The notes under the pieces are model-generated. The model had not been told where the DNA came from and did not search any database. It was given only the letters and a program-made list of their open reading frames with translations. Made by a program: the position numbers and the translations under genes. A stretch of 64,000 nt of DNA, taken from positions 1 to 64,000 of the IMG/VR virus record IMGVR_UViG_3300011113_000253; one strand, given 5' to 3'. The DNA is from a virus. Positions within the stretch are counted from its first letter, which is position 1. Every line of letters starts with the position of its first letter. Positions 14,922 to 41,843 of the stretch are shown here, one piece after another.

Positions 14922-14954
14922 TGATTTCTGTAGTACATTGACTTGGGAGACAGT

Positions 14955-17900: not shown

Positions 17901-18080
17901 GATGAACCTGGAACTGCATTAGATAGTGAGAACCTTGAAGGCTTTATCAGAATACTTGATATGATTAAAAATTATTATGATACTGTTCTTCTTATTTCCC
18001 ATATGGATGCTTTAAAAGATGTAGCAGATCAAATAATTACAATAGATAATGTAAATGGATTTGCCAAGATTGTTATTTAA
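14955..18080 (+). CDS. SbcD-SbcC fusion (gp47-gp46-type recombination nuclease/ATPase)
   Basis: The start is the ATG at 14955, five bases after GGGAGA; an upstream in-frame TTG at 14943 lies before that site and is rejected. The 1041-residue chain joins two proteins that are normally separate. The N-terminal metallophosphatase (MRE11/SbcD/gp47) shows HIADTHI, IIHCGDIAH, LGNHDG and GHDYAFLGDIHK. The SMC-like ATPase (RAD50/SbcC/gp46) shows Walker A GKNYSGKSS (about 395-405), long coiled coils around a hook with C713 and C720, the GSGAEKS signature and Walker B LFILDEPGTALDSEN (about 978-992). The complex processes DNA ends for recombination-dependent replication. The hook is C-x6-C rather than the usual C-x2-C. 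Confidence 0.9.
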   Translation: MKFAHIADTHIKNLKYHTEYKTVFSKMYDTLKEEKVDYIIHCGDIAHTKTQISPEFVEMAADFFKNLSAIAPTYIILGNHDGNLTNDSRQDALTPIVNALNLNNLYLLKKSGETKLKDNFVLNVLSVFDEEGWVKPSDPNAVNIALYHGSVNGVKTDTGFVLEKADHDVSIFVGHDYAFLGDIHKTNQTLDTDGRIRYPGSTLQQNHGETNDKGFLIWDIQDKLSFDCKHVLIENPNPFITVELEENGGLPNGLTIPLNARLRLLSRTNLPAEIMKNVGDVVKEKWKPESVSFLSKNVARSKELKESVDGIEKEDLRNVKVQEQLIEEFLVNYKVPTDVLQKVFEINKKFNTEVESKEEVARNINWKVESLEWDNLFNYGTDNKINFKNLQGIVGIFGKNYSGKSSVIDSILYALYNTTSKNEKKASNVINTAKKNAVVNLKLSVDDSEYVIARSCEKVIKKDGSEEAKTTLNFIGDGVSINGDTRVQTDANIKKMFGTIDDFMLTSMSSQLDSLSFIREGSTKRKEILGRFLDLEIFDAKNKLAKEESASIKALIKKLEVTDYDTQILKTQDEIEILNTTTNLLKDLVSDSNNTLKQLKTEIDSLDGQLKSINVESIDISKTIERREYLLTTSVKASTAKADKVLELENKTAEFDKITDFLNNFDIVGLNKKKEEIKDYQSKLSAITQDLQLNNKETKYLKDKIKLLGEVPCGTQFPTCKFIKDAIDASNKITNQENKTNNLADEHDKVGEALALLSPDVVEKQLNKYQMVVNKQTTVEKEILQLKIDVEKFNTIISNINKEMNLVKEKIEQYKKNEELFKQVESLTQDRNDKQIEWNQLDKETKANNEQLLQCYIKYGSLVEKIAALNVTKQELENYRNEFAAYDYFMKATSSNGISYEIIKKKLPIINEEIATILSNIVDFQIYFEDDGSKLNIMIQHPNSEPRPIEMGSGAEKSIAAMAIRLSMLQVSNLPKSNLFILDEPGTALDSENLEGFIRILDMIKNYYDTVLLISHMDALKDVADQIITIDNVNGFAKIVI

Positions 18081-19452: not shown

Positions 19453-20160
19453 ATGTCATTTTTAAATACACCAATACCAATAGTTGAAGCTTTTATTAGA
19501 GGAAATTTTTTACGAAATAATGAAGATTCGCATGATAAAAAATTTCCTTGTTATATATTTGGAATGTGCTCAATACCATCACAAGCTCCATTATTTCACT
19601 TTATTATGGAAGATGGGGGATTATGGTGGAGAATGCCTATACATGCTTTTTGTTGGAAAGATACTGCACCACAACAAGAGTTAGACGAATTAGTTCTTTG
19701 GGATTCGTTTTCGTATCATGTTGGAGTAACTTCATATCCAATTTTAAAAAATAAAGTTGTTAAGTTTATTTCTAGACGCAGGGAAAAATACCAAGGTAGA
19801 TATTTATTTACGTTAGATTGGGCAAGCTCCTCAGATTCATCGGAAACAGATTTTGGACTAAGTGAGTTTCCATCTCAACATAAATGTGGTCATTTTATTG
19901 CAATGGATAATGGTAATTTTGCTATTCAACCTAACAATCGTCTAACAATACATGATCCTTCTTTTACTGTTAAAGATAAAGTTGTTATAAATAGAAAATA
20001 TAATACTACACTTTGGACAGCCGAACGCAATGCTAGGTGGGTAACACCAGATACAGATATTATGAATTATGATCATACTGATTTGCAAAATGGCGAATCA
20101 AACTCTCAAAGATCAAATCAATACAATAATATAGATAATGAAACTATTAATAAATCATAA
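19453..20160 (+). CDS. Conserved phage hypothetical protein
   Basis: The 235-residue product starts at an ATG eight bases after AGGA (19441-19444). The N-terminus MSFLNTPIPIVEAFIRGNFL and the WWRMPIHAFCW and HKCGHFIAMDNGNFAIQPNN segments look like a conserved globular protein that I recall, without function, from cyanophages and other marine phages. The pattern of buried aromatic and Cys/His residues suggests an enzyme or metal-binding fold, but no known catalytic motif is visible. The C-terminal 40 residues are low complexity (Asn, Ser, Asp). It overlaps the next gene by 23 bases. Confidence 0.55.
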   Translation: MSFLNTPIPIVEAFIRGNFLRNNEDSHDKKFPCYIFGMCSIPSQAPLFHFIMEDGGLWWRMPIHAFCWKDTAPQQELDELVLWDSFSYHVGVTSYPILKNKVVKFISRRREKYQGRYLFTLDWASSSDSSETDFGLSEFPSQHKCGHFIAMDNGNFAIQPNNRLTIHDPSFTVKDKVVINRKYNTTLWTAERNARWVTPDTDIMNYDHTDLQNGESNSQRSNQYNNIDNETINKS

Positions 20161-27906: not shown

Positions 27907-28503
27907 ATGAGCAAATCACTTTTAAGAGAATTTTACGAACTATGCCCAAACGGACTTTGTGAAGACATACTTACAGAGTCTGATAAGCATTTCATCAAAC
28001 AAGGTGGAATGATGCTTTCTGGTGTTATTCAAAGAGCAGATGCAAGAAATGGAAATGGCAGAATTTATCCACATTCTGTTCTTGATCGTGAAATGAAAAC
28101 TTATCAAAATCTTGTCCAAGAAAGAAGAGCATTGGGAGAATTAGACCATCCAGATCAATCTGTTATCAATCTGCGTAACGTATCACATTTAGTTACAGAG
28201 ACTTGGTGGAACGGAAAAGATGTAATGGGTAAGATACAAGTTCTTAACACTCCATCTGGTCAAGTATTAAAAGAATTAGTAAATGCAAATGTCAAGATTG
28301 GTATTTCTTCAAGAGGAACAGGCTCTGTAAGAGAAAACAGAGGCGAAACAATAGTAGAAGATGATTTCAATCTTATTTGTTTTGATATTGTTTCTGAACC
28401 TTCAACTCATGGTGCATTTATGTTCCAAGAAAACAGAAAGATGGTTACAGAAAGTAGAGGAACAAAATTAAACAATTTAATTCAAGATTTGTTAAAAAAA
28501 TAA
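27907..28503 (+). CDS. Prohead core protease (gp21-type)
   Basis: The 198-residue protein matches T4 gp21 (212 residues) in key blocks: GVIQRADARNGNGRIYPHSV (the N-terminal substrate groove), LGELDHPDQ with H81, VKIGISSRGTGSV with S134/S135, and DIVSEPS (D160). These fit the Ser-His protease of the herpesvirus/gp21 fold. It matures the prohead by cutting scaffold and capsid proteins, with T4 preference for L/I-x-E. It sits among the shared-helix genes, which may be its substrates. The upstream spacing is two bases; the Shine-Dalgarno sequence is weak (AAGG). Confidence 0.92.
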   Translation: MSKSLLREFYELCPNGLCEDILTESDKHFIKQGGMMLSGVIQRADARNGNGRIYPHSVLDREMKTYQNLVQERRALGELDHPDQSVINLRNVSHLVTETWWNGKDVMGKIQVLNTPSGQVLKELVNANVKIGISSRGTGSVRENRGETIVEDDFNLICFDIVSEPSTHGAFMFQENRKMVTESRGTKLNNLIQDLLKK

Positions 28504-28515
28504 GGAGATTTTAAT

Positions 28516-28827
28516 ATGCAATTAACAACAGCAAGACTCAAGCAAATTATCAAAGAAGAACTTGAGCAATTAGTCAGCCAAGAAATGGAAGACGATTTAG
28601 AAGAAACAGTAGACGATGTTAGCGAAGTAAATGCAGAAATTGCTTCACTTGAGCAACAACTTGCAGAAGCCAAAAAGAAAGTAGAAATGGCAAAAGGTAA
28701 AAAAGCTGCAATGAAAGGCGATAAAATGCCAGCCAAAAGAGGCGATAGTGGTATGAAAAAAGTAGGACCAGAGCAAACCTTTTCCTCAGCTAAATCAGCT
28801 ATGAAAACAATGAAAAAAGGTAAGTGA
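28516..28827 (+). CDS. Shared-helix protein with acidic and basic halves
   Basis: The 103-residue product begins MQLTTARLKQIIKEELEQLV with AGGAG eight bases upstream. After the shared helix comes a strongly acidic segment (EMEDDLEETVDDVSEV), a short coiled coil (AEIASLEQQLAEAKKKVEMA) and a Lys/Gly/Met-rich basic tail. The small size, charge segregation and place right after the protease recall small T4 prohead core proteins such as gp67 and internal proteins, by character rather than by sequence. A double terminator follows. Confidence 0.6.
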   Translation: MQLTTARLKQIIKEELEQLVSQEMEDDLEETVDDVSEVNAEIASLEQQLAEAKKKVEMAKGKKAAMKGDKMPAKRGDSGMKKVGPEQTFSSAKSAMKTMKKGK

Positions 28828-28836
28828 AATAAAAAT

Positions 28837-28859
28837 AAAACCTAAGTTATAGGTTTTTT
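28837..28859 (+). terminator. Hairpin terminator 1 after 28516 gene
   Basis: AAAACCTA (28837-28844) pairs perfectly with TAGGTTTT (28850-28857) around a 5-base loop, followed by TT. The stem is AT-rich, so it is modest alone. Confidence 0.55.
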
Positions 28860-28864
28860 ATTAG

Positions 28865-28895
28865 AAGCGGTGCATTTTTATGCACCGCTTTCTAT
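28865..28895 (+). terminator. Hairpin terminator 2
   Basis: AAGCGGTGCAT (28865-28875) pairs over 11 bases with ATGCACCGCTT (28880-28890), with a TTTT loop and a T-rich tail. It lies within an upstream in-frame extension of the next gene, showing that the ATG at 28870 is not the true start. Confidence 0.75.
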
Positions 28896-28898
28896 TTA
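28892..28898 (+). promoter_or_regulatory. CTATTTA motif, putative late promoter
   Basis: TTTCTATTTATG follows the strong hairpin immediately and lies 25 bases before ATG 28924. AAAGGA at 28906-28911 is the likely ribosome-binding site. Confidence 0.55.
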
Positions 28899-28923
28899 TG
28901 TATGTAAAGGAAAATTATTAATC

Positions 28924-29583
28924 ATGGTACTAACTGAAACTAAATTAAGATCTGTTATAAGAGAAGAATTACAACAATACTTAATTGAACAAGGATTTTT
29001 ACAAAGAATAGGTTCTGGTATAAAATCTGCTTATCAAAAATTAACTGGTGGCGGTCAAACTTCTACAGCACAAGCTCAAACAACACCTTCTGCGGCACCA
29101 CCAGTTAATCCAAATGTTGCTAAACAAGTTAGAGATCAAAAAATAATTGATAGACAAAAAAGAGGCGAATACGGGCCTACAATACAGTCTGGTCAAGACA
29201 TAGTGAAAGCAAGACGCTATTATTTGCAATTATTAAATACAGGTAAAAAAGAACAAGCAATAAGAGAAATTTTTAACAACTTGACCGCTAACATAACACA
29301 TAGAAAAGATAGAGCCGAAACTTTAAATTCTAATGAAATTGCAATTTATAAAAAATTTATTACAAACATTGAAAATAAATTAAAAAATGTTGTTAAAGAA
29401 AATGAACAGCAAATACAAACAATTATTCCGACAGCCTTGTTAGGAGGTTATTTATCGGTACTTTACAATGAGATAATTAATAATAAACTTATGACAATTG
29501 AAGAATTTAAACGTATAATGAACATAACAGACATTAGTTTACAATTTGAAAAATTAAAGAAACTTATAACAGGAAATCAATGA
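28924..29583 (+). CDS. Shared-helix protein, unknown function
   Basis: The start at 28924 (MVLTETKLRSVIREELQQYL) is preferred over an in-frame ATG at 28870 because the latter would translate through the terminator hairpin. The 219-residue protein has the shared helix ending YLIE (L-I-E), then a Gln/Thr/Ala/Pro-rich linker (about 40-70) and a helical basic C-terminal domain. A weakly hydrophobic stretch, IQTIIPTALLGGYLSVLYN, lies near residue 170. It is coupled by ATGA to the next gene. Confidence 0.6.
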   Translation: MVLTETKLRSVIREELQQYLIEQGFLQRIGSGIKSAYQKLTGGGQTSTAQAQTTPSAAPPVNPNVAKQVRDQKIIDRQKRGEYGPTIQSGQDIVKARRYYLQLLNTGKKEQAIREIFNNLTANITHRKDRAETLNSNEIAIYKKFITNIENKLKNVVKENEQQIQTIIPTALLGGYLSVLYNEIINNKLMTIEEFKRIMNITDISLQFEKLKKLITGNQ

Positions 29584-29999
29584 ATTCAAATGATTTAAAG
29601 AAAACACTTCGTCCTCTTGTAAAACAATTGGTCAAAGAAGCAATGCAAGAAGAGTTATCAACTGTAATAAGTGAGATAATAAAGCAAACTTCTTCTACAC
29701 AAATTGTTGAACAAAGACAACAAGCTCAACCTGTAATCAATAAACAATTACAAGAACAAAGAGCAGCAGAAAAACAAAAACAAATAGAAGAAAGAAGAAA
29801 AAGATTAGAAGAGTTTAGTAAGAATTCTTTTGGTGGTTTAAACCTATTTGAAGGTACCACACCCGCACCACCACCAAGAGATACAGGAGCAGCGGCAGAG
29901 GCTGTAGCTTCTCCTTTGGCTGGTGTTGATCCAAGTGACTCTGGTGTTGACATTTCTGGTTTACTTAGAATGACGGGTGGTTGGAAACAGATAAAATGA
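29580..29999 (+). CDS. Helical Gln-rich protein, divergent shared-helix type
   Basis: The 139-residue product starts in an ATGA overlap. Its beginning, MNSNDLKKTLRPLVKQLVKE, followed by AMQEELS, keeps the amphipathic Leu/Val and Lys/Glu spacing of the shared helix but lacks the L-T-E start. A coiled coil rich in Gln, Glu and Arg follows (about 45-85). Then comes a Pro/Ala/Gly linker and a short C-terminal motif, DSGVDISGLLRMTGGWKQIK. The neighbours on both sides carry the full helix. Function unknown. Confidence 0.55.
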   Translation: MNSNDLKKTLRPLVKQLVKEAMQEELSTVISEIIKQTSSTQIVEQRQQAQPVINKQLQEQRAAEKQKQIEERRKRLEEFSKNSFGGLNLFEGTTPAPPPRDTGAAAEAVASPLAGVDPSDSGVDISGLLRMTGGWKQIK

Positions 30000-31036
30000 A
30001 AATCTTAACAGAACAACAAGTAAGACAAGTTATTCGCGAAGAACTTGAACAGTATCTTGTAAAAGAAGGTTTGATGAATCTTTCGGGTTTTAAGTTTTTC
30101 AAAAATCTTGCATTACCAGGAATTTTAATTGCTACAATTTTAAATTCTTTTGTTCAAACAGGCACTCAAGCTGCACAAGGCTTTGAATCCTTAAAACCAG
30201 ATCAACAACAAGTAGTTAAAGATGTGCAAACAATTGATGATTTATTAGATCAAGTTGGGATGAAAAGAGAAATACTTAAAGAATTAGAAAACCAATTAGA
30301 AAAAAAAGATCTTCAAAAAGCTGGTATTTTGTTCCAACAATTAAAAGAAAAACAAAAACAAATAATTAACGCTAAGACACCAGAAGAAAAAGAAAGATTA
30401 GAAGCTGAGAAAAGTAAAATCTTTAGCTCTAATAATTTTGAAGATCAAGAACAATTAAATAGATTTTTAGAAACAGGCAAAACAATTTTTAGATTTATAG
30501 AAAATGCTAAACCAGAAGAATTAGAAGCAGTTGGTAATTTAGATACAGAACAAGCATTATTAAAATTACAAGCTAAAGCAGCTAATTATGCTGTATCTTC
30601 TGGCGGCAGATCAAAGTTACTTGCAAGTTCTATTTCTAATGATTTAATAGCAATCAAAAATTATGTTTTAGAAACAGATTCTTCAATAGCACAAAATCCA
30701 AATGTTAAATCAAGTTTTGACATTGCATTGGCATACATACTAGACAAATACGGTGATGAAATTTTTAAATCAGATACTGTTGGCGATTCAAGTAAAATAA
30801 CTCCAATTGAAGTTATTGAATTTTTATCTAATAAAGGCGAGGTTGAATCAGAATTATTAAAATACTTTACAAAAGAAGGTTATGAATCATACAAGATAGG
30901 TCTTGAAGATGATCCAAATTATTTTATTACAAAAGATAAAGCACTACAATTAGCTTCTGGAATAAAATCGGTACAAGAAAATAAAATAAATAAACTAAGA
31001 CAAAGACTAAATGAATTGAGAGGTGTTTATGTCTAA
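29996..31036 (+). CDS. Shared-helix protein, large helical
   Basis: The ATG at 29996 in an ATGA overlap is preferred to the upstream TTG at 29981. The 346-residue protein begins MKILTEQQVRQVIREELEQY followed by LVKEG, then a hydrophobic helix (FFKNLALPGILIATILNSFV, about 30-50) and long charged helices with coiled-coil character (about 70-140). A hydrophobic segment after the tag, as in the 62401 protein, may suit a protein that interacts with a membrane after ejection. It overlaps the bS21 gene by eight bases. Confidence 0.6.
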   Translation: MKILTEQQVRQVIREELEQYLVKEGLMNLSGFKFFKNLALPGILIATILNSFVQTGTQAAQGFESLKPDQQQVVKDVQTIDDLLDQVGMKREILKELENQLEKKDLQKAGILFQQLKEKQKQIINAKTPEEKERLEAEKSKIFSSNNFEDQEQLNRFLETGKTIFRFIENAKPEELEAVGNLDTEQALLKLQAKAANYAVSSGGRSKLLASSISNDLIAIKNYVLETDSSIAQNPNVKSSFDIALAYILDKYGDEIFKSDTVGDSSKITPIEVIEFLSNKGEVESELLKYFTKEGYESYKIGLEDDPNYFITKDKALQLASGIKSVQENKINKLRQRLNELRGVYV

Positions 31037-31307
31037 GCAAAATACTCACGTTAATGTGAGAGTTAAAGAAAAGAAAGGTGAACCATTTGAGAGAATGGTC
31101 AAAAGATTCTTGAAAAAAGTTAAAAAAGAAAGAATCATAGAACAAGTAAAAGAAAGACGTTATTATGAAAAACCATCTGTAACAAAAAGAAAAGAAAAAC
31201 TTGCTGGTATTGCTAGATGGAAAAAAGCAGAAGCTGAGAAAAAACAGAAAGAATTGCAAAAAGAATCTAATTATAATAAACGTTTTGAAAAGAAAAAGGA
31301 AAACTAA
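31029..31307 (+). CDS. rpsU: Ribosomal protein bS21 homolog
   Basis: The 92-residue basic protein matches bS21 along its core. VRVKEKKGEPFERMVKRFLK corresponds to E. coli IKVRENEPFDVALRRFKR, and EQVKERRYYEKPSVTKRKEK corresponds to [20 protein letters not shown]. A Lys/Glu-rich tail extends it beyond the 71-residue E. coli protein. bS21 binds the 30S platform near the anti-Shine-Dalgarno region and assists initiation. Phage copies are known and thought to bias host ribosomes. The ATG at 31029, five bases after GAGAGG, is chosen over GTG 31023. It lies among virion genes, so it may be made late. Confidence 0.88.
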   Translation: MSKQNTHVNVRVKEKKGEPFERMVKRFLKKVKKERIIEQVKERRYYEKPSVTKRKEKLAGIARWKKAEAEKKQKELQKESNYNKRFEKKKEN

Positions 31308-31309
31308 AA

Positions 31310-31744
31310 ATGTCAGCTAACTATCCTTATGGTGTAGGTATAAGCAATGTAGGTTCATATCAAGTTTCTGGTATACCTTATGCTACATCAAGTCTTGCAG
31401 TTCCATCAAGTGCAGGTACTCCAACAGAAGTAACTTTCCCAGATGTAACTCAAAGAATCTTTGTATCTAACATAAATACTGCTTCACCATTGAGAGTTGG
31501 TTTTTCATCCAATGGTGTAAAAGGAACAAATTATTTTATAATTCCTGCCGCAACAACTACAACAGTTTTTCCAACACAAGAGTTTAGAGTAAAAGTATCA
31601 TCAATTTTTATTTTATCAAACACAACAACACCAACAAGTGCTTCTGTGTTTGCTGAACTATCAAACATAGGTACAATACATTTACAAAACTCTGGCCCTA
31701 ATGGTGTTGGTAATAACTGGTCTGGTTCTATAGGGGTAGGATAA
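31310..31744 (+). CDS. Small beta-rich virion protein
   Basis: The 144-residue protein starts MSANYPYGVGISNVGSYQVS and continues as Ser/Thr/Gly-rich beta strands (VTFPDVTQRIFVSNINTASP, FRVKVSSIFILSNTTTPTSA, VFAELSNIGTIHLQNSGPNG). The N-terminus resembles a common marine-phage structural protein I remember as unassigned, usually beside tail fibres. It precedes the large fibre gene by one base and is likely an adaptor or decoration protein. Confidence 0.6.
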   Translation: MSANYPYGVGISNVGSYQVSGIPYATSSLAVPSSAGTPTEVTFPDVTQRIFVSNINTASPLRVGFSSNGVKGTNYFIIPAATTTTVFPTQEFRVKVSSIFILSNTTTPTSASVFAELSNIGTIHLQNSGPNGVGNNWSGSIGVG

Positions 31745-31745
31745 A

Positions 31746-34151
31746 ATGAGTAGATTTGGTTGGGCTTATGTAAATTCTGAAATGACAGGGGCTGTAGCAA
31801 ACGGCCCAGACAAATCTATTCAATTTGCTTCTGGTTCTTCTCAAAAAATTTCTGGAAGTTCAAATTTAACTTTTGATTATACTACGAATACTTTATACCT
31901 AACTGGTACTTTAAGAGCAGATACATTAATTGTTTCTGCTTCCCAAATATTAAAATCTGGTTCAACAATATTTGGTGATAGTGTAGGAGACACACACCAG
32001 TTTACTGGTTCAGTTTATGTAGCTGGTATTGTTTCATCATCAACTGGTATACAAACCGCTGGTGCGATAACAAGTAATGGTGTTGTTTCATCTTCTACTG
32101 GTATACAAACTGCTGGTGCAATAACAAGCCAATCTATTGTTTCTTCGTCACTAGGGTTTCAAACAAATACAACAGTTCAAGCAGCAGGAAACATAACATC
32201 GCAAGGCATTATTTCTTCTTCTAATGGTTTTCAAACAAATTCAACAATTGATGCTGTAGGTAACATAAGAACAACTACTGGTGACCTTTCTTCTTCTCTT
32301 GGCATACAAACTGCTGGATTTTTAACTGTTGCTGGTGCTGGAACAATAAAAGGTGGATTAACCGTAACTGGTTCTTCTTTTGTTCAAGCACTTTCTTCAT
32401 CTGGTCAAATACAAGCAGCATCTTTTGCTGGTAATGGTCTTAACATTACAGGTGTTCAAGCCTATAATGTTGATGGCTCTGGTAATGATTGGTCAATACA
32501 ATTTAAAAATGGACTAACTGGAACTTTAACAGGTTCATCTAATTTGTTATTTAGCGGAAGTACTTTAACATTAACTGGTTCTATTCTTATGTCTGGTACA
32601 GCTTACATAAGTGAAACTGATTACATAGATTTTGATGTTTCTGCTTCAATACCATCATATAAAAATGGTAGAGTATTTTATGATACGGATACAGGTGATT
32701 TAGCTTATTATTTAACTTATGGTAATCAAAAACTTCAAATAGGTCAACAAACCGTAGTAAAAGTTAAAAACTCAAGTGGTTCCCCAATTTCTAAAGGAAA
32801 ACTTGTTCATATTATAGGTGGTGTTGGAAATAATCCATTAATTGCCACAGCAAGTTGGGAGAATGATTCAAATTCTGCAAATACATTAGGTATGTTAATG
32901 AGTACCGTAGCACATAATGATTTTGGTTATGTTTTATTGAATGGTGTTATTACAGATGTAAATACTGATCCTGCAACTTTTACCGCTGGTCAAGTTATTT
33001 ACCTTTCATCAAGTGGTGACTATACTGCTACCACACCAGTTGCACCAAAACATACAGTAAGGATTGGTGAAGTTGTTAGGGCACATGCAGTAGTAGGATC
33101 TATATTTATTAAGATAGATAATGGTTATGAACTTGATGAACTACACAATGTTTATATCTCTGGTCCATCTGAAGGTGATTTATTAGTTTATGATAACACT
33201 AATCAATATTGGAAAAACAATAAAGTATTATCTGGTTCTTATGTTGTAAGTGGAACATTAACTGTTTCTGGTGCTGCTACAATAAGAAGTGGACTAACTG
33301 TAACTGGTTCTTCATTTGTTCAAGCACTTTCATCATCTGGTCAAATACAAGCAGCATCTTTAAGAGGTGATGGTCTTAACATAACTGGAATTCAAGGTTC
33401 TAATGTTAGTGGTGTTGGAGATGATTGGACTGTACAACTTAAAAATGGAAGTACTGGAACTTTAACTGGTTCTAGTTTATTAAAATTTGATGCATCTGCT
33501 GCGACAAAAACATTAGCTGTTGTTGGCGATATAACAGCTACTAATATATCAGCTTCAACATTAATACAAGCAGGTAATTTTGCTGGAAATGGATTTTCTA
33601 TTACTGGCATACAAGGAACAAACGTATCAGCAATTGGTGCAAATGGGTCTGTACAATACAAGCATACAACTGGTGTTTTAACTGCTTCTAATAATTTAAC
33701 ATTTGATAATGGAACAAATACATTATTTATAACAGGAACAATAAATACTTCAACTGCTTCGATTGGCGTAGCATCAGTTAGCGGATTTACTACACTAGGC
33801 ACAACTTACGAAAGGGTATTGTTAACGTCCTCTATACCAGCAACAGTAACATTTGATACATCAACTAGATCAACAATGTACATAAATAACCCACCAGCAA
33901 ACTTTACATTAAACTTTACAAACGTTGCTACAACCGACCAAAGAGTGTCGGCGTATAATGTTGTAATTTCTCAAAGTGGTACACCTTACTCCGCTTCATC
34001 TGTTCAAGTTAATTCTACAGCTTCATCAGTTAAATGGTCTAACGCTGTTGTACCTGCTGGTACTGCAAACAGACACGATATATATGGTTTTAGTTTAATA
34101 AGATCTGGTAGTACTTGGGTTACATTAGGACAATTAAGTTCTTTCGGATAA
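31746..34151 (+). CDS. Tail fibre protein with internal repeats
   Basis: The 801-residue protein is Ser/Thr/Gly/Ala-rich with fibre-like repeats. An N-terminal unit, KSIQFASGSSQKISGSSNLT, recurs in modified form about every 230-400 residues, ending in F-D-x-x-T-N-T-L-x-x-T-G-T. Residues about 95-200 carry roughly 18-residue units of the type VSSSTGIQTAGAITS. A central globular insertion (VVKVKNSSGSPISKGKLVHI to KHTVRIGEVVRAHAVVGSI) is of a kind seen in phage tail fibres. The C-terminus resembles a receptor-binding beta domain. Role: host adsorption. Confidence 0.75.
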   Translation: MSRFGWAYVNSEMTGAVANGPDKSIQFASGSSQKISGSSNLTFDYTTNTLYLTGTLRADTLIVSASQILKSGSTIFGDSVGDTHQFTGSVYVAGIVSSSTGIQTAGAITSNGVVSSSTGIQTAGAITSQSIVSSSLGFQTNTTVQAAGNITSQGIISSSNGFQTNSTIDAVGNIRTTTGDLSSSLGIQTAGFLTVAGAGTIKGGLTVTGSSFVQALSSSGQIQAASFAGNGLNITGVQAYNVDGSGNDWSIQFKNGLTGTLTGSSNLLFSGSTLTLTGSILMSGTAYISETDYIDFDVSASIPSYKNGRVFYDTDTGDLAYYLTYGNQKLQIGQQTVVKVKNSSGSPISKGKLVHIIGGVGNNPLIATASWENDSNSANTLGMLMSTVAHNDFGYVLLNGVITDVNTDPATFTAGQVIYLSSSGDYTATTPVAPKHTVRIGEVVRAHAVVGSIFIKIDNGYELDELHNVYISGPSEGDLLVYDNTNQYWKNNKVLSGSYVVSGTLTVSGAATIRSGLTVTGSSFVQALSSSGQIQAASLRGDGLNITGIQGSNVSGVGDDWTVQLKNGSTGTLTGSSLLKFDASAATKTLAVVGDITATNISASTLIQAGNFAGNGFSITGIQGTNVSAIGANGSVQYKHTTGVLTASNNLTFDNGTNTLFITGTINTSTASIGVASVSGFTTLGTTYERVLLTSSIPATVTFDTSTRSTMYINNPPANFTLNFTNVATTDQRVSAYNVVISQSGTPYSASSVQVNSTASSVKWSNAVVPAGTANRHDIYGFSLIRSGSTWVTLGQLSSFG
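32031..32340 (+). repeat. Degenerate 54-base tandem repeats in fibre gene
   Basis: Two well-matched 54-base units (starting at 32031 and 32085) and about three looser ones encode VSSSTGIQTAGAITS-like 18- to 25-residue steps. The pattern suggests repeat expansion in a fibre shaft. Confidence 0.7.
32364..32424 (+). repeat. 61-base direct repeat, copy 1
   Basis: Matches 33300-33360 at 59 of 61 bases by eye, encoding TVTGSSFVQALSSSGQIQAA. The similarity continues more weakly downstream. Confidence 0.85.
33300..33360 (+). repeat. 61-base direct repeat, copy 2
   Basis: Second copy of the 32364-32424 repeat, 936 bases downstream in the same reading frame. Recombination between the copies would remove 312 codons without a frameshift. 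Confidence 0.85.
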
Positions 34152-34154
34152 CAG

Positions 34155-34667
34155 ATGTTAGGTAGACTTTCTTCAATTGTTGGACCATTAGGTAACCATC
34201 CAAAATCAAGAATAGGTTATAGATATTATCGTTTTAATACTACAAAAATTAGAGATAAAACAGCAGATCCAGCAAATGCAGAAGGTATTGTTCAAGTAAG
34301 CCAATTTGAGCTTATGTATTCTGGTGGATTTTTAAGCTATAGTGGCGCATCTGCTACTAATCCAGGTGGTACAAATCCAGCAGGCGAAGAACCAGATAAA
34401 GGGATAGATGGTTCTGTTGAAACAAAATGGTTGGATAGTAGTAATCGTGCTACTAGATCTTTAGTTATAGATTTTGGTTCTATTAGATTTGCAGATGCAT
34501 TCAGATTTGCTACAGGTAATGATGTAGACGGTAGAGATCCAGTTAGATGGACTGTGGATGGAAGTAATGATAACTCTAATTGGACTACATTACACTCTCA
34601 GTCTACAGACGCTTCAATAACTACAAGTAGAAAAACATACACTCAAATATTTTACTTTACAGCATAA
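34155..34667 (+). CDS. F5/8 type C (discoidin)-like adhesin domain protein
   Basis: The 170-residue protein looks like a single galactose-binding-like domain: YRYYRFNTTKIRDKTADPAN near the start, VSQFELMYSGG, then GSVETKWLDSSNRATRSLVI with FGSIRFADAFRFATGND, and DPVRWTVDGSNDNSNWTTLH. The last block is the W-x-V-x-G-S-N-D strand typical of F5/8C domains, which bind sugars on cell surfaces. It sits immediately after the fibre gene and is a good candidate for a receptor-binding tip or collar adhesin. Confidence 0.7.
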   Translation: MLGRLSSIVGPLGNHPKSRIGYRYYRFNTTKIRDKTADPANAEGIVQVSQFELMYSGGFLSYSGASATNPGGTNPAGEEPDKGIDGSVETKWLDSSNRATRSLVIDFGSIRFADAFRFATGNDVDGRDPVRWTVDGSNDNSNWTTLHSQSTDASITTSRKTYTQIFYFTA

Positions 34668-34680
34668 AATACATTTAAAT

Positions 34681-34687
34681 CTATTTA
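34681..34687 (+). promoter_or_regulatory. CTATTTA motif, putative late promoter
   Basis: AATCTATTTATAG ends six bases before ATG 34694, with no Shine-Dalgarno sequence between. Confidence 0.45.
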
Positions 34688-34693
34688 TAGTTA

Positions 34694-35659
34694 ATGGCAC
34701 GCCAAAAAAAATCTAATACTGCTTGGAATCAACCAGCAACTCCACCACCACCTTTATTTACAGGTGAAAAAGAACGCAATCTTGTTAAACAAGTCAATGA
34801 CGAAATTATTGAAAGAGTCATTGGTCAACAGATTGCGTATTTTGCTATTGACATTGATCGTTCAAATTTTCATCCTCTTTATGGTGAAGCAATACAAAAA
34901 ACATTTCTTCCACCAGTTAGAGTTTATGCTCTTGTTAAATGGGAAGGTCAAACACAACTATTCACACAAAATATTGGTATAGATAAAGCAACATCTATAG
35001 AGATTCACTTTCACAAAAAACGCTTGACAGAAGACCAAGATTTGTTTGTTCGTGAAGGTGATTTTGTTTTATATGGTGACCGTTATTATGAAATAGTTTC
35101 TACAGCAGAACCAAAACAATTGTTTGGACAAGTAGAAAATAAATTTGAAATTGTTGCTAAATGTCAAAGGGCAAGAGAAGGAATGTTTAATCCTCAATTT
35201 ATTGCAGACACTATTCCAACAACAAGAGTTACAACTTCTACTTCTACTGGTTCTTCGTCAACATATACAAACCCATCTACAATTACTGTTGGTGGTTTGA
35301 TAGTTAATAATAACACAACTACAAATACTTTAACAGTATCATCAACTTCTACATTTAATGGTGCAATAGTTTATGGAAATGTTTTAGTTTCTGGAAGTTA
35401 TAATGTTCTTTCAACCGACTATTTAATTGGAGTTAATACAACTTCTGCAACAGCTTCAATTACTTTGCCTTCAACCACAACAACAACTGCTGGAAGAACA
35501 ATAATAATTAAAGATGAAACAGGTAATGCTACTACCAACCCAATTCACGTATCAGCATCATCTGGAGAAACTATTGATGGTTTGTCTGTATTCACTATAG
35601 ATTCTGATCATGGTGCAATTATTATCTATTGCACTTCAACTGGCTGGCACGTAGCATAG
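34694..35659 (+). CDS. Connector-like N-terminal domain fused to fibre-type C-terminal module
   Basis: Of 321 residues, about 1-165 form a soluble domain unlike the neighbours: KERNLVKQVNDEIIERVIGQ, SNFHPLYGEAIQKTFLPPVR, EIHFHKKRLTEDQDLFVREG, DFVLYGDRYYEIVSTAEPKQ, LFGQVENKFEIVAKCQRARE. The D-F-V-x-Y-G-x-x-Y-Y-E-I pattern recalls head-closure or neck proteins (gp14-like), but this is tentative. After a Thr/Ser linker, residues about 225-321 are a fibre-type module (YLIGVNTTSATASITLPSTT to SGWHVA) shared with the next two genes. A neck-attached fibre or whisker-type role would fit. Confidence 0.6.
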   Translation: MARQKKSNTAWNQPATPPPPLFTGEKERNLVKQVNDEIIERVIGQQIAYFAIDIDRSNFHPLYGEAIQKTFLPPVRVYALVKWEGQTQLFTQNIGIDKATSIEIHFHKKRLTEDQDLFVREGDFVLYGDRYYEIVSTAEPKQLFGQVENKFEIVAKCQRAREGMFNPQFIADTIPTTRVTTSTSTGSSSTYTNPSTITVGGLIVNNNTTTNTLTVSSTSTFNGAIVYGNVLVSGSYNVLSTDYLIGVNTTSATASITLPSTTTTTAGRTIIIKDETGNATTNPIHVSASSGETIDGLSVFTIDSDHGAIIIYCTSTGWHVA

Positions 35660-35667
35660 GATTTTAA

Positions 35668-36234
35668 ATGGCTTATAAAGTTATCAAAGGTAAAAATAGA
35701 GTTACTGGTAGTCAAACTTTTATTGACGCACTATCTGGTTCTATAATCTCAGCTTCTTTTTTTGTAGGTAATGGTTCTTTATTAACAAACATTGCTGGTG
35801 GTGGTTCTGCAACTGGTGGTGGTCCTTTAACGGCAATACAATTTAAGACAGGATCTGCTGGAGAAATAAGTGGTTCTTCCGATCTATTGTTTGATTATAC
35901 AATACCAAAGTTTACCGCTAATTCTGGTTTTGTTGTAAGAAGAACTACAACATCTGGTAATTTGTCAATAACTGCTGCACAAAACATAATTGGTGTAAAT
36001 ACAGCTACTGCTACAGCGAGCATAACTTTAACTCTTCCAAACGCTTCTACTCTTTCTGACGGTCAAATGTTTATTGTAAAAGACGAAGGAGGAATGGCAG
36101 ACACTTATACAATTACTTTAAGTTGTTCTGTTTCTGGTCAAACAATTGATGGAGAAGGAACAGTAGTTATTGAGTCACCGTACTCAGCAGTAAATATTTA
36201 TTCAAATGGGTCAAATAAATACTTCATATACTAG
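35668..36234 (+). CDS. Short fibre protein
   Basis: The 188-residue product has an N-terminal anchor (MAYKVIKGKNRVTGSQTFID), a Gly-rich hinge and the repeat unit AIQFKTGSAGEISGSSDLLF also present in the 31746 protein. Its C-terminal 95 residues (NIIGVNTATATASITLTLPN to SNKYFIY) are homologous to the end of the preceding protein. It may be a separate short fibre or a subunit assembling with its neighbours. A terminator follows. Confidence 0.65.
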   Translation: MAYKVIKGKNRVTGSQTFIDALSGSIISASFFVGNGSLLTNIAGGGSATGGGPLTAIQFKTGSAGEISGSSDLLFDYTIPKFTANSGFVVRRTTTSGNLSITAAQNIIGVNTATATASITLTLPNASTLSDGQMFIVKDEGGMADTYTITLSCSVSGQTIDGEGTVVIESPYSAVNIYSNGSNKYFIY

Positions 36235-36261
36235 ACCAGCACACTACTTACTAATGTAGCG

Positions 36262-36304
36262 CATAACTTAAATTTAATTGTTTAGTTATGTGTCTTTTTT
36301 TTTA
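36262..36304 (+). terminator. Terminator between fibre genes
   Basis: CATAAC (36262-36267) pairs with GTTATG (36285-36290), and TAAA/TTTA extends the stem after a bulge; a run of at least eight T follows (from about 36295). It lies inside an upstream extension of the next frame, which supports the later start at 36321. Confidence 0.6.
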
Positions 36305-36320
36305 TAGGAGACAAAATAAC

Positions 36321-37859
36321 ATGGCATATAAATTTCAAAGGGGGCCTGCTGTAGCTTCTGGTTCTTTTACAGCAGAAGAAGGCTTAACTTCCAGTAATAG
36401 TCTTACAGTATCCGCTGGTACAGTTACATTACCAAACTCTTCTGTAGCAACAACAGCATTAGCAGCAAGTAGCGTAACTATAGGTAGTACTTCTGTTTCT
36501 CTAGGTGGAGTAGCAGCTACTTCATTAGATGGTTTAACAACAGTTGATACAACAAATATTGAAGTAACAAACATAAAAGCAAAAGATGGTACTGCTGCTG
36601 TTACCGTTGCAGATACAACTGGTCACGTTACCATAACAAACTTAACAGGAACAAGTGTAGCCATTAACGGTGGTGCAATTAACGGTACTACAATTGGTGC
36701 TACTACCCAATCATCCGTTAGAGCAACAACGCTTTCTGCTTCATCTACAATAACTGTAGACGGAGCAGCAACATTTAAAGGCGATGTAACATTAGGTGAT
36801 GCTGGTGCAGATACAATATATGTAAATGGATTGTTTACTTCATCATTAAATCCAAAAGTAAATAATGAAGGAAATGTTGGTGTACCAGGAAATTTATGGG
36901 CTGGTGTAAGTGCTACTGAACTTTCTGCTTCTAATAGAGTAAGAGCAGGCAATTCCATAACTGGTCAAACACTTACTGCATCTGTAGGTGCTACACTAGC
37001 TGCTACTGTAGTTACAACTATTACTGGTTCTAGTACCGCAACATTCCAATCTATGACTTCCAACAATGTTACAATTGGTGGAGGAACAATCAATGCAACA
37101 CCTATAGGTGGCACAACACAAGCTGCTGGTCAATTCACAACTCTATCAGCTTCAAGCAATTTGCAAGTTGGTTCATCAATAACTGCTTCTTCTGGAGTTA
37201 GAGTTTCTTCTGGTGGCGTTACAGTAACTGATGGTGGCTTGACAGTATCTCTTGGTGATTCATCTGTTCAAAAACTTACAGTCAATGGTGACTTAATTGT
37301 ACTTGGTAATACTTTCTCTGCATCTGTTGGTACATTAGTAATTGAAGATAAACAAATAGTTCTTGCCGATGGTGCCGCTGATCGTACTGTTGCTAATGGT
37401 GCTGGTTTCTTTGTAAGTGGTGCAAGTGTACAATGGACATATAAAAATGACGGTGAAGGCGCAGCAGCTTCTTCTAATGATATCTTTGTAGCTTCTAGCT
37501 CTGCTGGTCTTATCGATATTCAAGCAGCCAACTTCTATGGTACATTCAATGGTTCACTTGTTGGCTCAATGGCTTCAACAGTATCTGCTTCTGTTGGTGG
37601 TGCAACATTGGTTACTGGTGTTAACTACTTTGGTACTGTAGGTGGTGCTGTTTCTGTTACATTACCTGCCTCTGCTGGTTTGACCGTTGGTAATTCTGTT
37701 AAGGTTAAAGCAGGCTCAGATTGTAGTACAACAAACACAATTACAATTAACAAAGATGGTTCCCAAACTATAGACGGTGTAACTTTCGTAGTTCTTGAAT
37801 CACCTTGGGCAGCACTTGAATTTGTGTATGTAGCATCAGATACATGGAGAATCTTCTAA
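36321..37859 (+). CDS. Large fibre protein
   Basis: The ATG at 36321, ten bases after AGGAG (36306-36310), gives 512 residues; an ATG at 36288 would read through the terminator. The sequence is highly repetitive in Thr/Ser/Gly/Ala/Val (SSNSLTVSAGTVTLPNSSVA, TTLSASSTITVDGAATFKGD, GNLWAGVSATELSASNRVRA), typical of beta-helical fibres. A middle block, DLIVLGNTFSASVGTLVIED, resembles phage fibre shaft proteins. The C-terminus (QTIDGVTFVVLESPWAALEF) belongs to the module shared with the two genes before. Confidence 0.7.
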   Translation: MAYKFQRGPAVASGSFTAEEGLTSSNSLTVSAGTVTLPNSSVATTALAASSVTIGSTSVSLGGVAATSLDGLTTVDTTNIEVTNIKAKDGTAAVTVADTTGHVTITNLTGTSVAINGGAINGTTIGATTQSSVRATTLSASSTITVDGAATFKGDVTLGDAGADTIYVNGLFTSSLNPKVNNEGNVGVPGNLWAGVSATELSASNRVRAGNSITGQTLTASVGATLAATVVTTITGSSTATFQSMTSNNVTIGGGTINATPIGGTTQAAGQFTTLSASSNLQVGSSITASSGVRVSSGGVTVTDGGLTVSLGDSSVQKLTVNGDLIVLGNTFSASVGTLVIEDKQIVLADGAADRTVANGAGFFVSGASVQWTYKNDGEGAAASSNDIFVASSSAGLIDIQAANFYGTFNGSLVGSMASTVSASVGGATLVTGVNYFGTVGGAVSVTLPASAGLTVGNSVKVKAGSDCSTTNTITINKDGSQTIDGVTFVVLESPWAALEFVYVASDTWRIF

Positions 37860-37894
37860 TCTAGAATTAAGTTCTGGTTTTATATTAGAATTTT

Positions 37895-37928
37895 GGAAGG
37901 CATCAGAGATGGTGCCTTCCTTTTTTTT
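37895..37928 (+). terminator. Strong Rho-independent terminator
   Basis: GGAAGGCA (37895-37902) pairs perfectly with TGCCTTCC (37913-37920), followed by eight T. An upstream ATG at 37893 in the next frame would translate through it. Confidence 0.85.
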
Positions 37929-37937
37929 ATTTTATAT

Positions 37938-37944
37938 CTATTTA
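37938..37944 (+). promoter_or_regulatory. CTATTTA motif, putative late promoter
   Basis: TATCTATTTATT, ten bases after the terminator T-run and 17 bases before ATG 37962; GAGAG lies between. Confidence 0.55.
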
Positions 37945-37961
37945 TTTTGAGAGAAAAAAAC

Positions 37962-38519
37962 ATGGCATTTGGTTATACAAGAACTGGTTCCGTACAAGTA
38001 ATAGGCGATATAGTTGCAGGCAGCGATCCACAAAGAGATACAAAAATAGATTTTTCAAATAATCAAATAGATTTTGTTGTTGGTGGTGCAACTGTAGTAA
38101 CAATTACACCATCACAATTTAGTGCATCAATTTTTGTTGGAAATGGTTCTTCGTTATCTGGTGTTGGTGGTGGAGGAGGCTCTGGTGACATAACAGCAGT
38201 AAACGCTGGAACAAATCTAACAGGTGGTGGTACAAGTGGTGATGTAACATTAAATCTTGCAAGTTCTATAAACTTAACTGCTGTTACTGCTTCGTTTAAT
38301 GGTAATGGCTCAAATATTACACAAGTAACATCATCTGCAATAAATGATACAACAGGCTCTTTTCCAATACAAGGAATAGAAGACGGACAATACTTAAAGA
38401 GATCTGGAAATAAAATAATTGGTGCATTTGTATTTTCTGCTTTTGTTTCTTTTGCAGTTCCTTTTGCTGGACAACAAATTGCACCAACATCAGTAACATT
38501 TTCTGGAACGGCTGTATGA
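37962..38519 (+). CDS. Short fibre/appendage protein
   Basis: The 185-residue protein (ATG 37962) starts MAFGYTRTGSVQVIGDIVAG and has the DFSNNQIDFVVGGATVVTIT strand pair common in fibre N-terminal parts, a Gly-rich hinge (GVGGGGGSGD), SFNGNGSNITQVTSSAINDT and a C-terminal Phe/Val/Ala-rich stretch (KIIGAFVFSAFVSFAVPFAG). It is coupled by ATGA to the first of three paralogs, so it may be the shaft or adaptor carrying those proteins. Confidence 0.6.
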   Translation: MAFGYTRTGSVQVIGDIVAGSDPQRDTKIDFSNNQIDFVVGGATVVTITPSQFSASIFVGNGSSLSGVGGGGGSGDITAVNAGTNLTGGGTSGDVTLNLASSINLTAVTASFNGNGSNITQVTSSAINDTTGSFPIQGIEDGQYLKRSGNKIIGAFVFSAFVSFAVPFAGQQIAPTSVTFSGTAV

Positions 38520-39508
38520 GCTTACCTTTACCCGATTTAACATTTTATAGATTACCAGACGCTCAACCAGCAGCAGCAACTATTCAAGGTTTGCTCACAG
38601 CAGTTTATAATACTTTAACTTGTTCTGTAGATTATCGAGGAACGGCAATACCATCTACACATACATGGACTTGGGCTACTTCAAGCACTACTGGTCTTGC
38701 TGTTTATAGTACTGCATTACCTGCTGGATCTGGAAGAACAACCAATTTTGCTGTACTAGTTGCTGGCAATAACTCTGCCACAACACCAGCTTCTATGCTT
38801 ACTCCAGATACTTATACTAACTCTACTTCTGTTGTTGGAGTTATAAGAAATCCTGGTGCTTATTTACATTGGACAGGTTCTAATCCGTTCACAACAGGCG
38901 AAGAAATAGGATTATGGAATTTTACTGCTACAACAGCAAATGCTACTACAACAGTAGTTAGAAGTTACGTTTCACAAGAATCTGTGTTTGTAAGAGTTAT
39001 ACAAAACGGTACAACACAATATTGGTTTTATGGTGGAGCAGGAATAACTCCATATACTTCTAATGCAGATGGTACTGTTTTTACTGCCGAAAGAGATGAT
39101 AGAATTTTGTGTTTGTATACATCTAATACTGCTGGTATATCATCTACATTTGTTGCTGATAATACATTCAACGCACACAATGGAAGTATAAACCAAAATC
39201 ATGCTGGTTGTATTATGCCATTTACATATCCTCAAATTGTTACAGTAAACAATCCTTGGAGAAATGGTTTGGCTGCTACTGATGGTGAAAAAGATTTAAA
39301 TGGTAATTGGGTTCTTAGTGAAATGCCAGTAGCAAAATTAGTAGCACCACTTTATAGAATTGGTATGTTAAGGAACATATATGGACTAGGTAAAAATTTA
39401 ACAAACGCAACAAACACTTTAAGAAGCGGTTCTACCGATCTGTATCATATTCTATCTTATAACACAGCTTCAAGCTCACAATCTATTGTTTTAAAGGCTG
39501 CACCATGA
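38516..39508 (+). CDS. Tandem paralog 1 of 3, putative receptor-binding protein
   Basis: The 330-residue protein shares with its two successors the beginning LPLPDLTFYRLPDA, then T-x-DYRGTAIPSTHTWTW at about residues 40-57, Y-N/S-T-A-x-P-x-G, FVSQE-type and E-x-D-D-R-I/L-x-G/C-L segments, and the ending RSGSTDLYHIL...LKAAP. No membrane segment or enzyme motif is visible. It is rich in aromatic residues and Thr/Ser, as surface adhesins are. The start is inside the upstream stop (ATGA). Confidence 0.65.
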   Translation: MSLPLPDLTFYRLPDAQPAAATIQGLLTAVYNTLTCSVDYRGTAIPSTHTWTWATSSTTGLAVYSTALPAGSGRTTNFAVLVAGNNSATTPASMLTPDTYTNSTSVVGVIRNPGAYLHWTGSNPFTTGEEIGLWNFTATTANATTTVVRSYVSQESVFVRVIQNGTTQYWFYGGAGITPYTSNADGTVFTAERDDRILCLYTSNTAGISSTFVADNTFNAHNGSINQNHAGCIMPFTYPQIVTVNNPWRNGLAATDGEKDLNGNWVLSEMPVAKLVAPLYRIGMLRNIYGLGKNLTNATNTLRSGSTDLYHILSYNTASSSQSIVLKAAP

Positions 39509-40506
39509 GTTTACCTTTACCAGAATTAACTTTTTATAGAATGCCAGATATTACATTTTCTGGTTCTAACATACAACAAATGTTGACAAATTTATTAACC
39601 TCTTTGACAAGTACGGTTGACTATAGGGGAACAGCAATTCCTTCAACGCATTTATGGACTTGGGCAACTGGATCAACATCTGGTAGTATTTCTTCAATTT
39701 ATAATACCGCTGTTCCAACTGGCACTACAATGACACAAAATCCAACAATTATTTATGCTGGATTTACTGGTTCTGCTACACCAAAAACTGGTACAATTGA
39801 TACTTATGCATCACAAAGTTTATACGTTGGTGTTAACATAAATGGTACAACTTATACAGATTGGACAAATAATTTGCCAATGACAGCAGGTTCTTTTTTA
39901 GGTTACTCAAGAGTAGCCCCATCGGCGGTAACGATAGGAACCAGTACAATAATTAGAAATTATGTTTCTCAAGAAGTTGTTGTAACTGTTTTAAGAGCTA
40001 CTACATCTTCAAAATATGTTTCAATTGCTGGTGCTATTTATGAACCACACAATAGTTATTCAAGTAGTGCTGGTGGTACAAGAACAGCAGAACCAGATGA
40101 TAGAATTTATGGTCTAACAACAACTGGAACAACTGCATTAGCGACAACATTTTTATCAGCAGTAAATACAGGATTTTTATACAATCGTAGTAACGCATTC
40201 CTGCCAACAACATCCACAGTTATGCTTGTTGCAAGAGCTAGTACACATTTAGTTAACTCTTCATTTTACTCTCAAGATTTAACTGGTAAATATGTGTTTG
40301 ATAAAAATAGAGTTATGAGATCTGGTCATGGTGGTGGTAATGCAGCACTTGGACATTATAGAGAAATTTATCCTGCAACTGGTATCATGATAAACAACAT
40401 GAGGGGTGTCATACGTGACGAAGGTGTAGATAAGTTTCACATAATCACAGCAGACGAAGCACAGAATAACGTTTATTCAACTCTTGCATTGAAGGCAGCA
40501 CCATGA
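39505..40506 (+). CDS. Tandem paralog 2 of 3, putative receptor-binding protein
   Basis: The 333-residue protein keeps MSLPLPELTFYRMPD, DYRGTAIPSTHLWTWATGS, TAEPDDRIYGL and the LKAAP end, but its middle and its last 60 residues (KYVFDKNRVMRSGHGGGNAA, GVDKFHIITADEAQNN) diverge from the flanking copies. This is the most diverged of the three. It is ATGA-coupled at both ends, so the three should be made in similar amounts from one message. Confidence 0.65.
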   Translation: MSLPLPELTFYRMPDITFSGSNIQQMLTNLLTSLTSTVDYRGTAIPSTHLWTWATGSTSGSISSIYNTAVPTGTTMTQNPTIIYAGFTGSATPKTGTIDTYASQSLYVGVNINGTTYTDWTNNLPMTAGSFLGYSRVAPSAVTIGTSTIIRNYVSQEVVVTVLRATTSSKYVSIAGAIYEPHNSYSSSAGGTRTAEPDDRIYGLTTTGTTALATTFLSAVNTGFLYNRSNAFLPTTSTVMLVARASTHLVNSSFYSQDLTGKYVFDKNRVMRSGHGGGNAALGHYREIYPATGIMINNMRGVIRDEGVDKFHIITADEAQNNVYSTLALKAAP

Positions 40507-41549
40507 CAAATTATGAGATAACACCATTACCAGATTTAACTTATTACAGATTACCAGATGCATCACCAACTGCTGCAACTATTGATAAATTTTTAGATGC
40601 TATTTATGGGTCTTTAATTTCAACAACAGACTATAGAGGAACTACAATACCCTCTTCGCACACTTGGACTTGGAATAGATTTAGAAGTGCTACAAACATA
40701 ACAGAAGCAGTTTACAATACAGCAGTTCCAAGTACAGCATCGCTTACAAAAAATCCAACATTTATTTTTGCTGGTTCTTCAAGTGCGCCCGCTTCTGGTC
40801 CTACTATGTTAGCTCCAGATACTTCTTTTACACTTAATTATGGTCACGTTGGAATGGTGTTAAATCCTGGTGCTTATTCAAGTTGGTCAAGCACTACACC
40901 AATGACAAGTGGTAGTTTTTCTGGCTATTGGTATTTAGCTCCAAACACAATAAATATTACAACAGCAGTAGTAAGACCATTTGTGTCACAAGAAAATGTA
41001 TTCTTACAAATGTTTTTAAACAATACATTGCAATACTGGTGTCATATTGGTGCTATTTTTCAACCAATTGCATCATACGAAGATACCAAGCATCAATACA
41101 TAGCATCGGCAGAATCAGATAATAGATTGTATGGTATTTCAACATTAGGTGCAACTATAGGTACTGGCCTTGGGAATACACACTTAAGACAATCAAATTT
41201 TTATCTTTATCAAGGTGCTTTATCAATTTCTCAAGCTCATTGTGGTTATTTTATACCAGGAACATCAACTTTTACAAATGGTGTAAGAAGACATTATTCT
41301 CACGGTGGTCCACAACTATTTGAGAACATTGATGTTAATGATAATTATTTCTTTGAAAAGATGTACATAACAAGAAATAACTCTTCATTAGGTCAGTATA
41401 CAGTTGGGTACAGTAGAGAAACTTATGGTTTTGGTGTAGCACAAGCTGGATTAAAAACAATTAGATCTGGTTCTACAGACTTATACCACATTTTATCTTC
41501 CGACGAAACAACAGCAGCAGAAGCTATTGCTTTAAAGGCGGCTCCATAA
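40503..41549 (+). CDS. Tandem paralog 3 of 3, putative receptor-binding protein
   Basis: The 348-residue copy begins MTNYEITPLPDLTYYRLPDA, a few residues longer than the others at the N-terminus. It keeps DYRGTTIPSSHTWTW, VSQENVFLQMFLNNTLQYW, ESDNRLYGI and the RSGSTDLYHILSSDET...LKAAP end. Its closest relative is copy 1, which it matches at the C-terminus more than copy 2. It overlaps the following small gene by TAATG. Confidence 0.65.
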   Translation: MTNYEITPLPDLTYYRLPDASPTAATIDKFLDAIYGSLISTTDYRGTTIPSSHTWTWNRFRSATNITEAVYNTAVPSTASLTKNPTFIFAGSSSAPASGPTMLAPDTSFTLNYGHVGMVLNPGAYSSWSSTTPMTSGSFSGYWYLAPNTINITTAVVRPFVSQENVFLQMFLNNTLQYWCHIGAIFQPIASYEDTKHQYIASAESDNRLYGISTLGATIGTGLGNTHLRQSNFYLYQGALSISQAHCGYFIPGTSTFTNGVRRHYSHGGPQLFENIDVNDNYFFEKMYITRNNSSLGQYTVGYSRETYGFGVAQAGLKTIRSGSTDLYHILSSDETTAAEAIALKAAP

Positions 41550-41773
41550 TGACAATTAGAGATTGTGTAATTCAATTATTAGAAAGTAATAATGATATAA
41601 GTTTAGTAAAAATAACTAATTGGTTTAATTATCAAGAACCTACACTTTATATAAATGATAATAAAATAATAAACATTCAATTTTATGAATGTGTAGATCC
41701 TGGTGTTGTAGAATTTTATAACTCAAACAATCAATTAATCACAAAAGTTAAAGGTTTTTTTAGTGTTGAATAA
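41549..41773 (+). CDS. Small protein after fibre cluster, unknown
   Basis: The 74-residue product starts within a TAATG overlap with paralog 3. It is a mixed protein (MTIRDCVIQLLESNNDISLV, TLYINDNKIINIQFYECVDP) with no membrane segment. Its place recalls the small fibre-assembly chaperones that follow fibre genes in many phages, but there is no sequence evidence for that. Confidence 0.45.
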   Translation: MTIRDCVIQLLESNNDISLVKITNWFNYQEPTLYINDNKIINIQFYECVDPGVVEFYNSNNQLITKVKGFFSVE

Positions 41774-41807: not shown

Positions 41808-41843
41808 AGTATGATTAACTATTAGAAATTGGAGAACAATTTA

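Follow-up and report, generated by a model that had tools for sequence, protein, structure and literature searches.

Why should a phage carry, one behind the other, three versions of a protein that related phages make from a single gene, and why should all three versions end with the same five residues? We addressed this question in a window of 64,000 nucleotides, i.e., the whole stretch of DNA that was analysed, which covers most of a 73,750-base virus record of IMG/VR. The reading that we favour, with a probability of roughly 0.62, is that the locus is an adhesion cassette, the three paralogs being subunits with the fold of gp47 and gp48, the lateral-fibre proteins of phage JBD30.

By its gene content, the virus is a T4-like, contractile-tailed phage, with a match to the major capsid protein Gp23 (E = 9.5e-72) and to other markers of such phages (prohead protease, portal, terminase and tail sheath). 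Among annotated capsids, the nearest belongs to the Flavobacterium immuto phages (49% identity across the aligned parts). Another IMG/VR record, 3300011116_000655, was discarded as a separate relative: it is the same virus (99.98% identity over 17.9 kb) and adds nothing. The three paralogs lie in a stretch of about 13 kb (28516-41773), made up mostly of unknown genes together with fibre and baseplate genes, which runs from the prohead protease gene (27907-28503) to a scaffold-like gene at 41829 and the capsid gene at 42942; the immuto phages have just small ORFs at this place. The same stretch comprises two adjacent ORFs of 321 and 188 amino acids (34694-36234), each matching the baseplate family PHROG_20556, the first with a weak match to the T4 gp9/gp10 N-terminal domain too; this pair may be another duplicated adhesion part. 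Elsewhere in the window, a single ORF of 1045 amino acids with a TTG start (14943-18080) matches an SbcD-like PHROG at residues 3-369 and an SbcC-like one at residues 212-1043, as if both subunits of the recombination nuclease, which T4 encodes in the separate genes 47 and 46, had been fused. A ferredoxin-like gene (19453-20160, 235 aa; PHROG_3704, E = 1.7e-51) is a possible auxiliary metabolic gene.

The three paralogs, all on the plus strand, occupy positions 38516-39508 (copy 1, 330 aa), 39505-40506 (copy 2, 333 aa) and 40503-41549 (copy 3, 348 aa), and they are joined by four-base ATGA overlaps. Their N-termini have in common the motif PLP[DE]LT[FY]YR[LM]PD, followed by DYRGT.IPS.H.WTW, and their C-termini the residues LKAAP. 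Pairwise, the copies are 35-41% identical over nearly their full length (BLASTP; E from 1e-44 to 1e-67; 143-203 bits), whereas the best of 1500 shuffled copies reached 32 bits, so that their likeness is far beyond chance. Identity peaks in columns 1-80 (42-68%) and at the very end, and falls to its minimum at about columns 241-320 (16-28%). In the final 33 columns, identity is 63% between copies 1 and 3, as compared with 32% and 43% for the pairs that include copy 2, the most diverged of the three. The earlier note, which had described three ATGA-coupled paralogs with common start, DYRGT and end motifs, diverged middles and a closer C-terminal likeness of copies 1 and 3, was right on each of these points. 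No fourth copy was found in the whole 73,750-base record, and no model in the Pfam, PHROG, NCBIfam and PDB sequence searches covers the three copies. Weak matches of single members to CoA_trans, HTH, DUF7544 and coproporphyrinogen oxidase, all below the cut-off, were dismissed as chance.

As to relatives, searching 50,697 phage records with single protein sequences yielded nothing credible (one chance match), the bacterial genome contigs searched held no relative of the family, and nothing significant emerged from searching the PDB by sequence. Using degenerate DNA motifs in IMG/VR, with confirmation by HMM, we found about 17 distinct related loci, all in metagenomic phage contigs, which split into two groups: L042, L044 and L060/L070 share DYRGT with the window copies, and the members of the other group have a different sequence there. 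The 20 aligned members of the family gave no convincing family match in PHROG, Pfam or NCBIfam. The comparison of copy number in related phages, which the earlier note had called for, gave a uniform answer: outside this virus there is exactly one copy per record (20 of 20 records, which include some near-duplicates and are mostly fragments). In the tree, the three window copies group together as a single clade, with L042, L044 and L070 next to it (support 97/96), and this clade is stable when any single copy is left out (98-99/96). Because of this single, stable clade, an old triplication within this phage's lineage is the simplest reading, with the caveat of long branches; the clade also disfavours an independent acquisition of the three copies, not firmly, in view of these long branches and of the GC-rich relatives.

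The first copy comes directly behind a fibre-like gene, hereafter the carrier (37962-38519, plus strand; 185 aa), the end of which it overlaps by ATGA. The carrier has a C-terminal region (DGQYLKRSGNKIIG...SGTAV) that shares homology with the gene found before the family member elsewhere: in a search with an HMM built from the final 75 residues of the corresponding proteins of 16 other phages, it scored E = 1.5e-5, better than all unrelated window ORFs and 1000 shuffles. The window carrier has no match in PHROG; the tail families of PHROG do recognise the carriers of relatives. The linkage to a fibre gene, which the earlier note had read into this locus, is kept, in that the family gene lies directly behind a fibre-like carrier in every relative with a readable upstream gene. 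At the 17 distinct loci, the junction between the two genes is an ATGA or GTGA overlap in 14 cases, a one-base overlap in two and frame-broken in one. In L074 (6118-6628) and its near twin L075, the carrier is apparently frame-broken just before the family gene, the junction sequence being intact. The carriers also end alike, with DGQxLxRSGxxIxG or DETMLVRRAG and then mostly ...GTxV, and a scan of IMG/VR for the carrier DGQ motif alone returned seven contigs, all seven with a family gene behind the motif.

Behind copy 3, and coupled to it by TAATG, comes a gene of 74 amino acids (41549-41773, plus strand), which the earlier note had not included; it is the positional counterpart of the genes of 64-67 codons that follow the family gene in 13 of the 15 loci readable downstream. 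These small genes (L070, L076, L084 and others) are of two unrelated types, MSPAVAWVAALAAEGH... and MTYxEQIEQYVAAYP..., which track the adhesin subfamilies; the window gene has no detectable homology to either. Set against the relatives' cassette (carrier, 325-aa protein, small gene), the window thus possesses the carrier homology, the coupling and the family gene, with the 74-aa gene matching in place only. In G001, the gene order is tape measure, two more large genes, carrier (with minor tail protein matches), family gene, small gene, and then spanin-like and VanY-type endolysin genes. The slot between tail and lysis genes is the usual place of receptor-binding proteins. In the window, an intrinsic terminator-like hairpin (37895-37920, plus strand; an 11-bp stem followed by a T run) separates a 523-codon fibre-like gene from the carrier; it is the strongest of the region, where such sites are no commoner than in shuffles. 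No other plus-strand terminator-like hairpin was reported from there up to 43200, and promoter matches in the region are at chance level. A hairpin before the carrier and none after it up to 43200 fits a single transcription unit, which would comprise the carrier, the three copies and the small gene.

The family's likely nature emerged from its predicted fold. The model of copy 3, obtained with AlphaFold2 on a 20-row alignment (pLDDT 79.9, pTM 0.85; low confidence at residues 192-199, 219-233, 265-272 and 295-297), had a sole PDB chain below E = 0.001 in Foldseek, namely 8rk3_G of the JBD30 baseplate (E = 5.2e-6, probability 1.00, TM-scores 0.50/0.56, values near 0.5 marking a shared topology only). 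The model of the relative L076 (about 26% identical to copy 3; pLDDT 87.2, pTM 0.91), which was built from the same sequence set and is not fully independent, again had 8rk3_G as its sole PDB match (E = 4.8e-4). Chain G is very probably gp48, as judged from length, because its 305 modelled residues fit the 307 amino acids of gp48 better than the 318 of gp47. Among the BFVD matches are phage "virion structural proteins", including those of FoX4 (321 aa) and MMDA13 (330 aa), the lengths of which equal those of the gp48-like genes of these phages. For another BFVD match, in Agrobacterium phage Atu_ph07, no sequence link to the family was found. An enzyme or scaffold fold, which the earlier note had named as evidence against its proposal, did not appear: the predicted fold matched a JBD30 tail-fibre protein, and there is no enzyme among the significant matches of either model. 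The link to gp47 and gp48 is one of fold, because sequence profiles of the family failed to match them (E = 0.31 and 0.013, respectively), while in the positive control the profiles of gp48 and gp47, both members of PHROG_687, recognised each other as related (E = 3.7e-10). The earlier impression of an unrecognised family hence holds for the sequence libraries searched and not for the fold, which is a known one. On the basis of the two models, the three copies are probably a new sequence family of the JBD30 gp47/gp48 adhesin fold, expanded to three in this phage.

From these lines of evidence, we propose a single adhesion cassette, cotranscribed and coupled in translation, which comprises the carrier gene, the three copies and the gene of 74 codons. 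The carrier would be a short fibrous tail protein, and the three paralogs beta-rich adhesin subunits that share the gp47/gp48 fold of JBD30. These subunits would be part of the virion, attached to the carrier or next to it at the outer end of the tail, and would there contact the host surface. Type IV pili are not to be taken for granted as the receptor of this phage. In the relatives, a single copy would do the job, presumably as a homo-oligomer; in the window phage, the old triplication would have supplied three subunits, the common ends of which probably serve assembly and the diverged later parts of which are probably receptor-facing. That the three copies join in one hetero-oligomer is possible, at somewhat less than an even chance. 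More doubtful is the proposal that a triplicated homo-oligomeric adhesin became a hetero-oligomer of three obligatory subunits on a single fibre, the LKAAP codons doubling as ribosome-binding sites and the gene order setting the subunit ratio.

It is worth considering what the LKAAP ending can tell, since the earlier note had taken equal translation and shared ends to suggest a hetero-trimer or alternative adhesins on one shaft. In each of the three copies, AAGG occurs within the LKAAP codons, suitably spaced from the start that follows: AAAGG in copy 1 (39493-39497), GAAGG in copy 2 (40491-40495) and AAAGG in copy 3 (41534-41538), all on the plus strand, are placed as Shine-Dalgarno sequences for copy 2, copy 3 and the 74-codon gene, respectively. 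Such sequences precede 36 of 53 starts in this phage, versus 7.8% of other ATGs, and in several relatives, the carrier end SGGTVV contains GGAGG ahead of the family gene. Translation may therefore account in part for the identical C-termini. A protein-level basis is suggested as well, because LKAAA is the ending of L042 and L044, two relatives with a single copy, and the copy-3 model places its final beta strand at the C-terminus. As the codons hold a putative ribosome-binding AAGG and single-copy relatives have nearly the same ending, LKAAP is a weak argument for a hetero-trimer. The least credible account is that the shared ends are a mere trace of recent duplication or gene conversion, without functional meaning: conserved ends and diverged middles can arise in that way, but the same end motifs are found in other phages, and same-codon use at the shared residues is no higher than codon usage predicts. 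Because there is no such excess, we take the likeness of the ends to be old and kept by selection.

The copies could also be alternative or mixed adhesins, each building its own homo-oligomeric tip, so that virions would bear one, two or three kinds and reach a broader host range. The concentration of divergence in the later columns is as expected for distinct receptor faces, the single-copy relatives indicate that a homo-oligomer is workable, and the synonymous sites between the copies are saturated, which speaks for three functions long kept apart. We nevertheless regard this proposal as rather unlikely, since coupled translation ties the three copies into one unit, neither switching nor invertible repeats are in evidence at the locus, and in the JBD30 precedent the paralogs pair as a heterodimer. 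Virion-borne enzymes (depolymerases or hydrolases) in place of plain adhesins are quite improbable: the authors of the JBD30 study placed gp47, whose fold is similar, among the hydrolases of the nitrilase superfamily (PMC11445458), and the family studied here keeps the acidic residues D106, E164, E204 and D206 (copy 3 numbering), but the hydrolase reading of gp47 is putative, Pfam, PHROGs and NCBIfam gave no enzyme family match, and the significant fold matches are likewise free of enzymes. Slightly more improbable still are assembly factors or chaperones of the carrier fibre, absent from the finished virion; the place directly behind a fibre gene is one where tail-fibre assembly genes often sit, yet the fold match is a virion component, the separate small gene behind the family suits a chaperone role better, and three chaperones of some 330 residues would be unusual.

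Together, these data assign a likely role to a family about which none of the sequence libraries searched had anything to say. They also connect siphovirus-like phages with an uncultured phage of the T4 type, and both with the fold of the JBD30 fibres. Should the three copies make up a single complex, their comparison with the single-copy relatives would show the change from a homo-oligomeric to a hetero-oligomeric adhesin. The embedded ribosome-binding sites also call for caution: where genes are coupled, a common protein function does not necessarily follow from identical C-termini.

The closest known system is the JBD30 pair gp47 and gp48 (PHROG_687; PDB 8rk3 and 8rk5), products of neighbouring genes with similar folds, which form heterodimers, three of them making up each lateral fibre, which binds the type IV pilus (PMC11445458). 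The family resembles this pair in its fold, according to the two models, and in its length (318 and 307 aa in JBD30). Adjacent paralogs, which in JBD30 work as a hetero-oligomer, occur in the window but not in the 20 other records. It differs in that the JBD30 genes sit between the tape measure and a distal tail gene, whereas the family sits behind a carrier fibre gene; in that there are two copies there, as compared with three in this phage and one per relative (20 records); in that the contractile tail is a feature of the window phage; and in its lack of detectable sequence relation. For Pseudomonas phage Lydia and the M6-like phages, the JBD30 fibre fold was reported for the neighbouring genes gp67/gp68, and the same paired-fibre arrangement was proposed for Lydia (PMC11946847); a gp48-like protein of JM2/M6 was altered during host-range evolution (PMC11577772). 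These pairs, from siphoviruses of Pseudomonas, differ from the family in the same ways as those of JBD30. The long and short tail fibres of T4, with their gp38/Tfa-type helpers, are alike in that partner genes come after a fibre gene within a single gene cluster, in a phage of the T4 type, and unlike in that the copies and the carrier have no similarity to them in PHROGs or Pfam. Among these systems, the JBD30 gp47-gp48 heterodimer would have its three-part counterpart in the obligate three-subunit hetero-oligomer, if this is formed as proposed, in a T4-like phage with a contractile tail.
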